From a virus: a stretch of DNA of 34,611 nucleotides. Positions 1,691 through 5,881 of the stretch are shown here, in pieces. The DNA lies in IMG/VR virus record IMGVR_UViG_3300046371_000190, positions 1 to 34,611 of that record; one strand, given 5' to 3'. The position numbers and the translations under genes were made by a program. Under the pieces are notes generated by a model that worked only from the letters and a program-made list of their open reading frames with translations, was not told the origin of the DNA and made no database searches. Numbering within the stretch: the first letter of the stretch is position 1; each line of letters opens with the position of its first letter.

Positions 1691-3892
1691 ATGAGCGTAA
1701 ACTATTTTGCAAAGGTACGGGAAAGCGTCGTAACCGAGATCGGCATGGCTCCGCAGGGGCGTCGCAACGAGGCGCTGAACCTAGCGGCATACGCGCTGGG
1801 TCGGCACGCGCACATGGACGCCGCCAACATAGACAGCAGCGTCATAGACTTACACACGGCTGCCAAGGCAATCGGGCTGCAGGAACACGAGATCAAGGCA
1901 ACCATTGGCAGCGGGTTCAAGCGCGGCAGCGAAAACCCGAAGCAGCTCGAAAACGATGACGCGGTGCCGTTTCAGCCGAGCGAGATGGATCGCCTGATCG
2001 TGCGCTTGGCCAGCAAGGATCTGCTGATCCGCGACGAGGAAACGCGCGCCGAGAAAATCGCAAAGGCGCAGGCCGCGTGGGAGCGCAGCGTGCCAATATC
2101 ACGCGAGAACAAGGACGCCGTCAGACCGGCGCTGCTGTACCTGAACAACCGTGGAATGCGCGCAGGCGTGGCAGAGGGCGTCGCGCGCTTCAGCCCCAGC
2201 CTATACGACGGGCCAGCGATACTGTTTCCCGCGACCAACGCCGAGGGCGACGTCTGCGGCGTGCAGGCGGTGCTGCTGACGCCGGACGGGAAGAAGCGCG
2301 AGCATAATAACATCAACAAGTATTCACGCGGATCACTGGTGGGCAATGCCATGCGGATCGGCGATCAGCACGAGGGCGGCGCGATCATACTGGTCGAGGG
2401 GCCAGAGGACGCGCTGAGCGTGCGCCAAGCGATCATGGGTCATGTGGAGGCGACAATCGTCTGCACGTTTGGCAAGTCGGGCATGAAGACGTTTAACGCG
2501 CCAAGAGCCAGCGACGTCACGATCTGCGCAGACCCTGACCTCGACGTGGAGGCGGTGTCGGACGTGCTGCGCGGCGACGGCAGCACCGACGTCCACGTCG
2601 TGCGCTTCGACGCGCTGGGCGTGGAAAACGTAAAGGATGCCAACGACTACCTGCAAGAAGCGGGCGCGGAGAAGCTGCGCGAGGCGCTGGCGCTGGCGAA
2701 GCCGGTCGAGGAAGTAAAGCAGGAGCGCATCGCAGGCGAGCGCCAGTGGCCAACCGCATACGAGCCAATAGACCCCGCAACAATACCGGCGCGGCGGTGG
2801 ATCTACGGGCAGCATTACGTGCGAGGCCATGTCAGCGTGCTTGCCTCGGCGGGCGGCGTCGGGAAGACGTCGCTGCAGATTGTGGAGGCTCTGTGCATCG
2901 GAACGGGCAAGCCGCTGCTGGGCGAGGCCATACACGAGCCGTGCAAGGTGTGGATTATCAACCTCGAAGACCCGCTGGAAGAGATGCAAAGACGCCTCGC
3001 GGCGGCGATGCTGCACTACGGCGTCACCGCCGAGGAAATACGGGGGCGCTTGTTCCTCGACGCCGGCAGGAGCTTGAACATGGTCTTCGCCAACCAAGGG
3101 CGCGACGGGATCGAGGTCAACGACGAGATGCTCGACTATATGGCGGCCAAGATCAAGGAGAACGACATCGGCATGGTGATGATCGACCCGTGGGTTGGCG
3201 CGAACCAGATCAACGAGAACGACAACGTGGCCATGAATGCAGCCGTCGGTGCCGTGCGTAGCGTTTGCGACGAGACAGACTGCGCCGTGGCGCTGGTGCA
3301 TCACATCCGCAAGGGCAACGGCGACGAGGCAACCATAGACAGCGTCAGGGGCGCGGGGTCGCTGATCGGGGCGGCGCGTGCGGCGCGGGTCATCAACAAG
3401 ATCAGCGCGGAAGACGCGCAGAAGCTCGGCGTGTCAGAAGCGGAGAGCCTCGGCATATTCCGCGTGGACGACGGCAAGGCAAACTTGGCACCGCCAGCCG
3501 CGAAGGCGGTCTACCGGCGCATGGTGGGCGTGCAGCTGCCAAACATGGAATATGTCGGCGTGGCCACGGAATATGCGATGCCGGATCTCTTCGACGGCGT
3601 GTCGGCGCGCGACGCGATGAAGGTGCAGCGCGCGGTGGGCGACGCGGAAGCGCAGGGCGAGCCGCTTCGCGCAAACGTGCAGGCAAAGACGTGGGTCGGC
3701 GTCACGGTGGCAGACGTGCTGGGGCTAGACTTGGAGAAGCGACACGAGAAGGCGAAGGCCAAGGCAATCGTGGCCAAGTGGATCGAGAACGGCGTGCTGC
3801 GCAAGACGTCTGCGCCGAGCAAGCGTGACGGCAGGGAGGTGCCGTGCGTTGTGGTGGGTGACTGGATAACGGGAGAGGAGGCTGGGATATGA
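1691..3892 (+). CDS. Primase-helicase: Toprim domain plus RepA-like RecA-fold ATPase
   Basis: 733 residues; ribosome site GGGAAGCGGG precedes the ATG. N-terminal region (about 1-140) is helical with no clear match. A Toprim-type segment follows, with the acidic E236 in ILVEGPEDAL and the later CADPDLD motif. The C-terminal half is a RepA/AAA_25-type ATPase: Walker A ASAGGVGKTS with K392, INLEDP just after, Walker B-like MVMIDPW with D499, and LVHHIRKG as a sensor-like motif. The last ~90 residues look like a winged-helix tail. Such fusions make primers and unwind DNA for phages without their own polymerase, consistent with none being visible. No N-terminal zinc-binding cysteine set is visible, so primase activity is less certain than helicase activity. 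The stop overlaps a repeat-rich non-coding stretch. Confidence 0.85.
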   Translation: MSVNYFAKVRESVVTEIGMAPQGRRNEALNLAAYALGRHAHMDAANIDSSVIDLHTAAKAIGLQEHEIKATIGSGFKRGSENPKQLENDDAVPFQPSEMDRLIVRLASKDLLIRDEETRAEKIAKAQAAWERSVPISRENKDAVRPALLYLNNRGMRAGVAEGVARFSPSLYDGPAILFPATNAEGDVCGVQAVLLTPDGKKREHNNINKYSRGSLVGNAMRIGDQHEGGAIILVEGPEDALSVRQAIMGHVEATIVCTFGKSGMKTFNAPRASDVTICADPDLDVEAVSDVLRGDGSTDVHVVRFDALGVENVKDANDYLQEAGAEKLREALALAKPVEEVKQERIAGERQWPTAYEPIDPATIPARRWIYGQHYVRGHVSVLASAGGVGKTSLQIVEALCIGTGKPLLGEAIHEPCKVWIINLEDPLEEMQRRLAAAMLHYGVTAEEIRGRLFLDAGRSLNMVFANQGRDGIEVNDEMLDYMAAKIKENDIGMVMIDPWVGANQINENDNVAMNAAVGAVRSVCDETDCAVALVHHIRKGNGDEATIDSVRGAGSLIGAARAARVINKISAEDAQKLGVSEAESLGIFRVDDGKANLAPPAAKAVYRRMVGVQLPNMEYVGVATEYAMPDLFDGVSARDAMKVQRAVGDAEAQGEPLRANVQAKTWVGVTVADVLGLDLEKRHEKAKAKAIVAKWIENGVLRKTSAPSKRDGREVPCVVVGDWITGEEAGI

Positions 3893-3925
3893 TGGCCAGC
3901 GAGATGGGTGGCGTTGGGGGCGTTT

Positions 3926-4069
3926 CCGCACGTTCCGCACTTACCGCACTTACGGTGCGGCGTGGTGCCGAGGGTGCGGTAAATACGGCAAGAAATCTTC
4001 CGCCGCACCACTTGCATATATATATGCAAGGTGCGGAGAGAAGTGCGGGCGTATTTATTGAAGGTGCGG
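3926..4069. repeat. CCGCAC/GTGCGG repeat cluster with AT-core palindrome (candidate origin or operator array)
   Basis: Nine copies of one hexamer in 144 bp: CCGCAC at 3926, 3935, 3944 and 4003, and its complement GTGCGG at 3955, 3974, 4031, 4043 and 4064. The first three are spaced exactly 9 bp. 3944-3960 is a dyad. A perfect 20-bp palindrome with a TATATATA core occupies 4011-4030 and is itself bracketed by CCGCAC (4003) and GTGCGG (4031). Direct and inverted hexamers around an AT core, next to the primase-helicase gene, resemble an iteron-type replication origin. A multi-site operator for the downstream genes is the alternative. The overlapping short reading frame (3889-4113) shows no protein-like features. 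Confidence 0.6.
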
Positions 4070-4105
4070 AGATTGTTTTATTGGGGATGCGTAGGGGGCA
4101 TGTTC

Positions 4106-4693
4106 ATGGTTAAGCAGAAAGGGCGTCGCCCTACGGCAAAGCAGATAGCGTCGAAGGGGAAGTTTACGGTTGGCGAAAAGACGGAGCCTATACCGGCGGC
4201 AGTCTGGGGTCAGCTGGAACCGCTCGATCGGGTGGCGCGGGAAATGACGGAGCGGTGGGGTGATACGCTGCCGTCGCTGGTCACGCCGGATCTGGCAGGC
4301 AAGTTCGAGGCAGCCTACGAGGCGCTGAAGGAGGCCATCGTCGAGCGTGACGTCGTCAGGACGAACAAGATCGCCACGCAGCTCATGGCGGGGTGGAAGC
4401 GCATGGAAGCGGAAGCGGAGGGCGCGGGGCATAAGCCGCTGTCGCCGCACGCTTGGTGCGTGGAGCTGGATGGCGGGCAGATCGTGTGCTTCGCGCGGCA
4501 GGGATGCGCTGAGCTGCGCAAGCGGTATCCGCAGTGGGTGGTCTACTCGTTCGAGGATGCCGCGTGCGTGCTGAAGCAGCACTTCAGCGAGGCGTTTCTG
4601 CAGAAGGCGTTTGAGGCGTTCCCTAACGCGAAGGTGACGCGTGTGGTGGATGGACATGGAAACGATAACATAGAGGATGATATACCATGGTGA
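4106..4693 (+). CDS. Unknown protein with SSB-like acidic C-terminal tip
   Basis: 195 residues from the ATG at 4106, which has AGGGGG at 4093-4098 at good spacing; the ATG at 4100 is too close to that site and the frame open from 4031 runs into the repeat array. The N-terminus is basic (VKQKGRRPTAKQIASKGKF), the middle is helical with charged residues (about 45-115), and residues 125-180 carry several Cys, Trp and Tyr. The protein ends NIEDDIPW, very close to the bacterial SSB tip D-D-D-I-P-F. I do not recognise the family. The tail and the position after the primase-helicase suggest a replisome partner, or a mimic competing for SSB-binding host proteins. The stop overlaps the next start. Confidence 0.65.
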   Translation: MVKQKGRRPTAKQIASKGKFTVGEKTEPIPAAVWGQLEPLDRVAREMTERWGDTLPSLVTPDLAGKFEAAYEALKEAIVERDVVRTNKIATQLMAGWKRMEAEAEGAGHKPLSPHAWCVELDGGQIVCFARQGCAELRKRYPQWVVYSFEDAACVLKQHFSEAFLQKAFEAFPNAKVTRVVDGHGNDNIEDDIPW

Positions 4694-4956
4694 CGAGGGA
4701 AGATATTTTACGCACGGCGGGTGACTTGATCACGGGCGACAGGCAGCGGACGTATGGCTCCGCAAAGGCGTCGCACGCGACCATTGCTGGCATGTGGTCG
4801 GCGTATCTCGGCGTGGACGTGACCGAGGTGGACGTGGCAGCGATGATGGTGTTGCTGAAGGTGTCGCGGTCGCGCTCAAGCGATCATTCGGACAACTGGG
4901 TGGACGTGTGCGGTTACGCTGCGATAGCGGGCGAATTGGAGGCGTCAGGTGGGTAG
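4687..4956 (+). CDS. DUF6378 domain protein
   Basis: 89 residues, starting inside the previous gene (7-bp overlap). The pattern I-L-x-x-A-x-x-L-I-T-G-D-R-Q-x-T-Y-G, then W-S-A-Y-L-G, M-M-V-L-L-K-V-S-R and D-N-W-V-D-V-C-G-Y-A-A is that of the DUF6378 phage family, found widely in temperate and lytic phages. The role is not established; the helical fold and acidic spacing have suggested MazG-like nucleotide pyrophosphatases, which would suit a replication operon, but that is inference. It is the last recognisable gene before the 430-bp control region. Confidence 0.82.
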   Translation: MVTREDILRTAGDLITGDRQRTYGSAKASHATIAGMWSAYLGVDVTEVDVAAMMVLLKVSRSRSSDHSDNWVDVCGYAAIAGELEASGG

Positions 4957-4975
4957 GGTAGCCTGCGAGGCGTTT

Positions 4976-5053
4976 GGGCGTCTCACAGCGGCTCTGAGGG
5001 GGCGTGAGGGCGTGTTTAGCCTCTGCGGCAGACACGCCGACGCTCAGACGCCC
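4976..5053 (+). other. Nested inverted repeats (structured RNA or terminator-like element)
   Basis: GGGCGTCT (4976-4983) pairs with AGACGCCC (5046-5053), and AGCG (4987-4990) with CGCT (5041-5044), separated only by small mismatches. Inside, GGCGTGT (5009-5015) pairs with ACACGCC (5032-5038), and GCC/GGC at 5019-5028 may form the apex. The element begins about 20 bases after the DUF6378 stop. No T-run follows, so it is not a standard intrinsic terminator. It could be a 3' stabiliser, a Rho-related end, a small RNA or part of a packaging site. Confidence 0.45.
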
Positions 5054-5072
5054 GCGCGCGAATACATCAGCC

Positions 5073-5110
5073 TGACCAACTGGTCAACATTGGTGCGGTA
5101 TAATGATACC
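5073..5110 (+). promoter_or_regulatory. Operator-like dyads over a perfect -10 box (candidate regulated promoter)
   Basis: TGACC-N4-GGTCA lies at 5073-5086. A perfect TATAAT lies at 5099-5104, inside a second dyad GGTAT-N4-ATACC (5097-5110). There is no convincing -35 at normal spacing (a CTGACC at 5072 is 21 bp away), which would fit an activator-dependent or repressed promoter. A transcript from here would run through the hairpins at 5232-5313 toward the terminase genes. Confidence 0.4.
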
Positions 5111-5183
5111 ACTCTGCAATGCGGCAATATCGCCAACGATACAACCATAGATAGGTGTAAAACGCTAACATGCTGATATTGCT

Positions 5184-5206
5184 ACATAATAAATTTAACA
5201 TAATAA
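5184..5206. repeat. AT-rich direct repeat ACATAATAA x2
   Basis: The 9-mer occurs at 5184-5192 and 5198-5206, 14 bp apart, in the most AT-rich part of the intergenic region. Its place between two dyads and ahead of the terminase genes could suit a DNA-unwinding, bending or protein-binding element. Confidence 0.35.
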
Positions 5207-5231
5207 CGATTATGCGATTCCAGCTGCAGAT

Positions 5232-5249
5232 CCTGACCATGCGGTCAGG
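5232..5249. promoter_or_regulatory. Second TGACC-N4-GGTCA dyad (operator or terminase-binding site)
   Basis: CCTGACC (5232-5238) and GGTCAGG (5243-5249) flank four bases. The core TGACC-N4-GGTCA has the same architecture as the dyad at 5073-5086, with centres 161 bp apart. A further TTGACC half-site begins at 5251. Matching sites in one intergenic region suggest a single dimeric binder, either a regulator or the small terminase. Confidence 0.5.
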
Positions 5250-5254
5250 TTTGA

Positions 5255-5313
5255 CCCCCCCCACTTCGCGCTTCGACGGGGGCATGTGTGTATAGAAAAG
5301 CGCACACACCCCC
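5255..5313 (+). other. Alternative G/C hairpins upstream of the late promoter
   Basis: GGGGG at 5278-5282 can pair with the C-run at 5258-5262, or with CCCCC at 5309-5313. The second option is extended by TGTGTG (5285-5290) with CACACA (5303-5308), leaving a 2-nt bulge. The two folds exclude each other. CCCCCGCA repeats follow at 5309-5324. No T-run follows. Attenuation of read-through from the left, or a packaging element, are possible. Confidence 0.35.
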
Positions 5314-5336
5314 GCACCCCCGCACCCCCTACGCGC

Positions 5337-5365
5337 TTGCCATACCCATGGCCCCGCGCTAAAAT
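5337..5365 (+). promoter_or_regulatory. Sigma70-type promoter for the terminase/late operon
   Basis: TTGCCA (5337-5342), a 17-bp spacer, then TAAAAT (5360-5365). The predicted start near 5372 leaves a short leader holding AAGGAG at 5377-5382 just before the ATG at 5390. This is the best-formed promoter in the window, and its position at the head of the morphogenesis genes suggests the principal late promoter read by host RNA polymerase. Confidence 0.6.
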
Positions 5366-5389
5366 TTCCCGCGTACAAGGAGAAACGCA

Positions 5390-5881
5390 ATGGCAGGCAA
5401 GGCGTTACGCAAACGCATATTGACGGAGGTCGCCTCCAACGGCGGCGCAGATTGGCTCTTTGACCAGATCGCGTCCGGCATCACCGTCGCCGAGTTGGCA
5501 CGCCAATACGGCTGCACGCGCAGCTATGTTAGCAGGAGCCTGAACAGCGTGCCTGAGTATGCGGCCGCGCTGAGCAAGGCTCGCGGCGAGGCAGCGGATG
5601 CGCTGGTGGAGCAGGGCTTGGAGATGGTTGACGGGTTGAGCGGCGCCAGCAGCCCGACGGAGATCGCCGCCACGCGCGAGAAGGTACAGTGGCGCAAGTT
5701 CATGGCTGGCTCGATGAATCAGGATCGCTACGGCACGCGCCCGCAGAGCAACGTCACGCTTTCCATTGGCGATCTGCACTTGGACGCGCTGCGCAAGTTT
5801 AGCGCCGACATGAAGCGCGTGAACAGCGACGCCGAAGCCGCCACGATTGACGCTGAATATGTGGAGGTGTCGGATGAGTGA
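5390..5881 (+). CDS. Terminase small subunit
   Basis: 163 residues behind a strong AAGGAG site. Residues about 30-55 form a helix-turn-helix (G-I-T-V-A-E-L-A-R-Q-Y-G-C-T-R-S-Y-V-S-R), followed by long charged helices, including M-A-G-S-M-N-Q-D-R-Y-G. A DNA-binding N-terminal domain followed by an oligomerisation helix, directly ahead of a large terminase, is typical of small terminases. It would recognise the packaging site, perhaps in the intergenic region just upstream. Its last bases overlap the large-subunit start by eight. Confidence 0.85.
   Translation: MAGKALRKRILTEVASNGGADWLFDQIASGITVAELARQYGCTRSYVSRSLNSVPEYAAALSKARGEAADALVEQGLEMVDGLSGASSPTEIAATREKVQWRKFMAGSMNQDRYGTRPQSNVTLSIGDLHLDALRKFSADMKRVNSDAEAATIDAEYVEVSDE

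Follow-up and report, generated by a model that had tools for sequence, protein, structure and literature searches.

We found that a compact array of CCGCAC/GTGCGG hexamers beside a phage primase-helicase gene changes its letters, across related phages, in step with individual residues of that enzyme. Because the C-terminal domain of the primase-helicase co-varies residue by residue with the repeat, the enzyme very probably binds the array physically, and by analogy with known replicons we consider it likely that the array is the phage's replication origin. With comparable confidence, we propose that the primase-helicase is the initiator of this origin, and that the two form a self-contained system resembling phage P4 alpha and its ori, with a RecA-type helicase replacing the SF3 one. 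We also favour, with somewhat less confidence, the view that the pair embodies a natural two-position protein-DNA recognition code, in which initiator residues 664 and 713 would read two bases of a hexameric iteron, and which, within a single phage clade, has been switched about 7 and 15 times, either through a small number of changes or through joint swapping of domain and array, yielding mutually distinct replicons.

A repeat array beside a primase-helicase gene

We analysed a stretch of 34,611 nucleotides of viral DNA, hereafter the window. Contigs of relatives bridge its end (34611) to its start (1) across about 410 bp absent from it, so the window represents nearly the whole genome, about 35 kb. 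Its structural genes include an SU10-type portal, a scaffold and a major head protein, and its head and connector genes come closest to those of Octadecabacter Antarctic DB virus 2 (62% and 57.5% identity), a match that suggests roseobacter-like hosts; the phage is uncultured and probably marine. Consistent with the preliminary description, which had seen no polymerase, Pfam and PHROGs returned no convincing DNA polymerase in the ORFs scanned (small ORFs only in part), and one PHROG matched by the primase-helicase itself carries the name DNA polymerase/primase. A DNA search of phage records with the array region gave no match, and none of the phage records in the collection carries most of the primase-helicase. 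Rhizobium phage RHph_X2_26, which reaches 37.6% identity over the helicase region, was set aside, as its C-terminal sequence differs and no such array was found in it.

All nine hexamer copies were recovered where the preliminary description had placed them (3926-4069), three of them at the 9-bp spacing it reported, as was the proximity to the primase-helicase: the array occupies the roughly 210 bp that separate the end of that gene (3892) from a downstream gene starting at 4100 or 4106 (Table 1). The leading direct repeats number two to four among close relatives, and the degenerate GTGCCG represents a tenth site that reads GTGCGG in relatives such as locus L058. Within these 144 bp lie 9 of the 32 copies of the motif in the window (Poisson P about 5e-14, with the array included in the background and the motif picked after the fact, i.e., after viewing the sequence). 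A density equal to that of the array was reached in the window only by CAGCAG, in a different stretch, and no second cluster of more than two CCGCAC/GTGCGG copies occurs elsewhere in the window (about 410 bp of genome lies outside it). The perfect palindrome previously described at the centre (CTTGCATATATATATGCAAG, 4011-4030) is likewise confirmed, and is the sole perfect 20-bp palindrome of the window (runner-up 14 bp; about 0.04 expected from base composition). A 74-aa ORF across the array (3889-4113) has no family match in Pfam or PHROGs.

Table 1 Features of the array and its flanking genes, in window coordinates
Feature	Position	Strand	Basis or remark
Primase-helicase, 733 aa: DUF7146 and Toprim_3 primase region, AAA_25 RecA-type helicase, C-terminal winged helix	1691..3892	+	Pfam, PHROGs
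C-terminal winged-helix domain, residues 623-733, putative array-binding domain	3557..3889	+	AF2, PDB fold matches, co-variation
Codon 664 (Gln), predicted to specify repeat base 6: Q with CCNCAC, R with CCNCAG	3680..3682	+	Co-variation
Codon 713 (Asp, wing), predicted to specify repeat base 3: D with G; A/H/T with A; Q with T	3827..3829	+	Co-variation
CCGCAC direct repeats, three copies (3926, 3935, 3944)	3926..3949	+	Exactly 9 bp spacing
GTGCGG repeats (3955, 3974) and degenerate GTGCCG (3965-3970)	3955..3979	-
Outer inverted arms TAAATACG (3980-3987) and CGTATTTA (4050-4057), flanking the central element	3980..4057	.	Inverted pair
Central inverted repeat: CCGCAC (4003), 20-bp palindrome (4011-4030), GTGCGG (4031)	4003..4036	.
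Outer GTGCGG repeats (4043, 4064)	4043..4069	-
Downstream gene, start 4100 or 4106	4106..4693	+	No Pfam match; kept in relatives, directly 3' of array

The primase-helicase combines a Toprim_3 match (PF13362, E 6.2e-10) with an AAA_25 helicase region (PF13481, E 8.6e-38), and has no match to an SF3 helicase family in Pfam. AF2 modelled the full-length protein at pLDDT 72.9 and residues 623-733 at 82.9, the latter as a winged helix of three predicted helices (639-654, 669-677, 684-700) and a beta-hairpin wing (strands 703-709 and 716-722); residue 713 lies in this wing and residue 664 directly ahead of the second helix. Among the PDB matches listed were winged-helix chains, such as those of RecQ/BLM and of DNA-motif-bound FtsK gamma, a similarity at the level of fold only (VIA-align Z up to 7.5, Foldseek E above 0.01), and a PDB sequence search with a profile of the C-terminal domain gave no match.

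Further downstream lie a DUF6378 gene and, 1.3 kb from the array, terminase genes from 5390. A second intergenic stretch (4957-5390), before the terminase small-subunit gene, carries a poly-C run and a hairpin-like stretch, TGTGTGTATAGAAAAGCGCACACAC. Contig ends accumulate roughly in this stretch or a little past it, 29 of 94 lying about 1.35-1.65 kb downstream from where the array starts, close to the beginning of the small-subunit gene; the stretch and the pile-up may mark genome ends, a packaging site or an assembly obstacle.

Concerted change of repeats and residues among relatives

A first scan of IMG/VR yielded 80 loci of relatives, and the array was ultimately present in 161 of 161 distinct relatives with enough sequence, so that the loss from close relatives for which the preliminary description had advised looking was seen in none of them. 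In every relative reaching far enough the array stands directly upstream of the same downstream gene, with its layout largely kept. One or more small genes are often inserted between the primase-helicase and the array; the genes that follow the primase stop codon at this point differ among L003, L012, L041, L049, L063, L071, L081 and others, as if this junction accepted insertions and the array stayed by the downstream gene. One relative, L188 (contig CAKZOI010000056.1, with a primase 71% identical and a CCGCAC array), comes from an Opitutae metagenome bin and is probably a phage contig binned with a bacterium.

Between lineages, all copies of an array switch together, giving seven types (CCGCAC, CCGCAG, CCACAC, CCACAG, CCTCAC, CCTCAG and CCCCAC). 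Judged from sequence, such concerted change is the trace one would expect from altered specificity of a binding protein. Apparent intermediates also exist, such as the arrays of L050, L056 and L057, which retain relict sites. The central inverted repeat varies in a different manner: its symmetry is kept as its sequence changes, and a position may show as many as four pair types. Across 44 distinct segments (four loci with misplaced centres excluded), pairing at the inner 12 positions was 73%, compared with 44% (maximum 53%) when arms were shuffled among sequences; as the palindrome centre was defined as the best-pairing point, the former figure is somewhat inflated, and the shuffled arms are the fairer control. 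The palindrome looks like a conserved inverted repeat with freely changing sequence instead of the AT-rich unwinding element previously suggested, and the best 60-bp stretch of the array is 55% AT, not notably AT-rich.

Changes were mapped on a tree of 120 distinct primases whose C-terminal domain had been excluded, with residues 1-640 alone as input. On this tree, repeat base 3 changes 15 times and residue 713 changes 16 times, and 14 of these fall on shared branches (F1 of shared changes 0.90, the runner-up among 740 columns reaching 0.38), while base 6 and residue 664 each change 7 times, all on the same 7 branches (F1 1.0; next best of 740 columns 0.75). Random placement of changes gave at most 6 (base 3) and 5 (base 6) shared branches in 5000 trials, compared with the observed 14 and 7. 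The downstream gene, equally close to the array, served as a control and contained no tracking column (best F1 0.31 for base 3 and 0.40 for base 6). Overall, residue 664 predicts base 6 in 120/120 primases and residue 713 predicts base 3 in 118/120, with most combinations of residues 664 and 713 represented, namely (Q,D) with CCGCAC, (R,D) with CCGCAG, (Q,H/A/T) with CCACAC, (R,A/H) with CCACAG, (Q,Q) with CCTCAC and (R,Q) with CCTCAG. The pairs involved are chemically ordinary (Asp-C, Gln-A, Ala/Thr-T and Arg-G on the relevant strands), and the wing would read a base, probably in the major groove.

These rules were also applied to new sequences. The rule for residue 713 was written down, from the last residues of the primase-helicase, before a first new set of 45 distinct contigs was fetched through other queries, and it was right in 34 of the 36 cases it covered, both misses belonging to one lineage (L106 and L171). 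Thr at 713, new in this set, accompanied A at base 3 in 9/9 cases. A rule set beforehand for base 6, based on residue 718 (P for CAC, Q/T/A for CAG), was refuted by the same contigs (11 P with CAG, 6 Q with CAC), and residue 664 was chosen from the 740 columns once it had failed. With the 713 and 664 rules fixed, a second new set of 42 further distinct contigs, 41 with an array, gave correct calls for base 3 in 41/41 and for base 6 in 41/41 (36 read automatically, and 5 LDARAK sequences by alignment), the new contigs being related to earlier ones and phylogenetically dependent on the first set.

The lineage that breaks the base-3 rule carries CCCCAC/GTGGGR, i.e., C at base 3, together with Q713. 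It differs from L104 within the domain at residues 648, 652, 671, 676, 705 and 710, so a second residue probably shares in reading base 3.

Two pairs of relatives illustrate how specificity may have switched. The primases of L056 and L061 are identical except at 17 of 733 positions, of which three, H/D at 713 included, fall in the C-terminal domain, and most sites of their arrays differ at base 3, with L056 retaining a GTGCGG relict. L013 and L025 differ at 40 residues, only 3 before residue 640 and 37 in residues 640-733, and their arrays differ too, so that domain and array appear to have been exchanged together. Considering both pairs, few-residue change and module exchange both appear to occur.

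Candidate roles of the array

An origin is the most likely role for the array, since in phage P4 alpha, SaPI Rep/Cch2 and RSF1010 replication starts with a helicase, or a partner of it, positioned on iterons. The iteron origin proposed in the preliminary description is strengthened by the residue-level co-variation of primase and repeat, and gains nothing from the GC-skew check that accompanied it: skew shows no switch at the array and is positive along nearly the whole window, with a detrended maximum near 5019 and the array on a rising slope. No DnaA box was found near the array. As a separate observation, the strongest local GC skew of the window (0.27-0.28, compared with mostly <0.15 elsewhere) occurs at 3500-5000, around the array and the downstream gene.

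An operator array, already named as the alternative in the preliminary description, is now narrowed to a form in which the primase-helicase, or a truncated product with its C-terminal domain, regulates the downstream genes (4106-4693, the DUF6378 gene and the terminase). The array does stay directly upstream of the same gene even when other genes separate it from the primase. We nevertheless consider this reading unlikely as a full account, given that the putative binding domain belongs to a replication enzyme, that the repeats and conserved inverted repeat resemble known origins, and that no sigma-70-like promoter was found at the array (although the consensus may not fit this host); the promoter and terminator scan gave one terminator-like site, on the minus strand (4132-4120). 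Since initiators often regulate as well, the operator and origin roles are not mutually exclusive.

It is considerably less probable that some other phage or host protein binds the array and that the correlation with the primase reflects linkage only. The primase does lie near the array, and the apparent joint exchange in L013 and L025 would fit such linkage, but the other flanking gene is equally linked and has no tracking column, residues 664 and 713 are exceptional among the 740 columns, and switches occur with few other domain changes (L056/L061). A terminase-recognised packaging site (cos or pac), for which the nearby terminase genes might speak, is very improbable: many contigs run through the array, contig ends gather near the start of the terminase small-subunit gene, and the repeat co-varies with the primase. 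Finally, the choice of the motif after the sequence had been seen would invite an explanation by chance or composition, which is refuted by 161 relatives that keep the array, its layout and its symmetry even as its letters switch together.

For an origin bound by the primase-helicase, we envisage the following mechanism. The winged-helix domain (residues about 640-733) would bind every hexamer of the array, with base 3 specified by wing residue 713 and base 6 by residue 664. Once several monomers occupy the array, they might assemble or load the RecA-type helicase ring, with DNA opening at or beside the central inverted repeat, whose hairpin may be the priming site for the Toprim domain, after which host polymerase would extend. 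The helicase-loading and hairpin-priming steps are put forward tentatively.

Known replicons and implications

The closest parallel is phage P4 alpha, in which one polypeptide joins a Toprim-type primase, a helicase and a winged-helix domain that binds origin repeats (as outlined in PMC4234260, citing Yeo 2002 and Ziegelin and Lanka 1995). Here, too, a Toprim-type primase shares a polypeptide with the helicase, the iterons fit the initiator's predicted specificity by co-variation, and the C-terminal domain is a winged helix, by fold only (AF2, VIA-align), the P4 domain not being among the fold matches listed. The helicase of P4 alpha is of the SF3 class, whereas the one here is AAA_25 (RecA type). 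Further differences are that a single array was found, with no second cluster like P4 crr in the window, and that the 6-bp repeat unit varies among lineages with residues 664 and 713.

In SaPI Rep and SCCmec Cch2, the helicase C-terminal domain binds short iterons directly downstream of the helicase gene, according to the portions of PMC7581432 used here, which contain no residue-base code for SaPI or SCCmec. Co-variation points to a similar pairing of C-terminal domain and array in our phages, in which inserted genes often separate the two; the helicase class differs, and the primase is separate in SaPI/SCCmec and fused here. The oriV of RSF1010 (IncQ) combines iterons with stem-loops for priming (ssiA/ssiB), served by RepC, RepA and RepB' (outlined in PMC4234260). 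Those three are separate proteins, in contrast to the one fused 733-aa protein here, and ssiA/ssiB priming would have its counterpart in the putative hairpin priming. RSF1010 RepA is a RecA-type helicase.

Two further systems show origins diversifying. In the RepA_N initiator of PLE satellites, the DNA-binding domain co-varies with the origin and is exchanged as a module, with two specificity groups (PMC8263062); that domain belongs to another family without a primase-helicase fusion, whereas here seven repeat types are resolved to single residues. In the pRN1 family, whose initiator has a C-terminal winged helix, an origin stem-loop downstream of the gene keeps its structure while its sequence changes (outlined in PMC4234260), much as the central inverted repeat here keeps its symmetry, although pRN1 has an archaeo-eukaryotic primase, an SF3 helicase and no iterons.

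It is thus already known that initiator domains co-vary with origins (PLE RepA, PMC8263062) and that helicases carry C-terminal iteron-binding domains. As far as we can tell within the open-licence literature, two features are new, an uncultured phage clade whose Toprim/RecA-type fusion initiator has iterons of its own and a specificity traced to two residues and two bases through many independent switches. Origin switching could be driven by a need to evade origin-directed nucleases, satellites or competing phages, a driver already proposed for PLE. Should our reading hold, sequence alone would have revealed the initiator and origin of a phage group that is widespread and uncultured, and origin specificity would be readable, predictable and testable letter by letter. 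The clade would offer a rare natural series in which an initiator evolves jointly with its roughly nine binding sites and stays functional, apparent intermediates included, and the cause of origin diversification among replicons would become directly testable.
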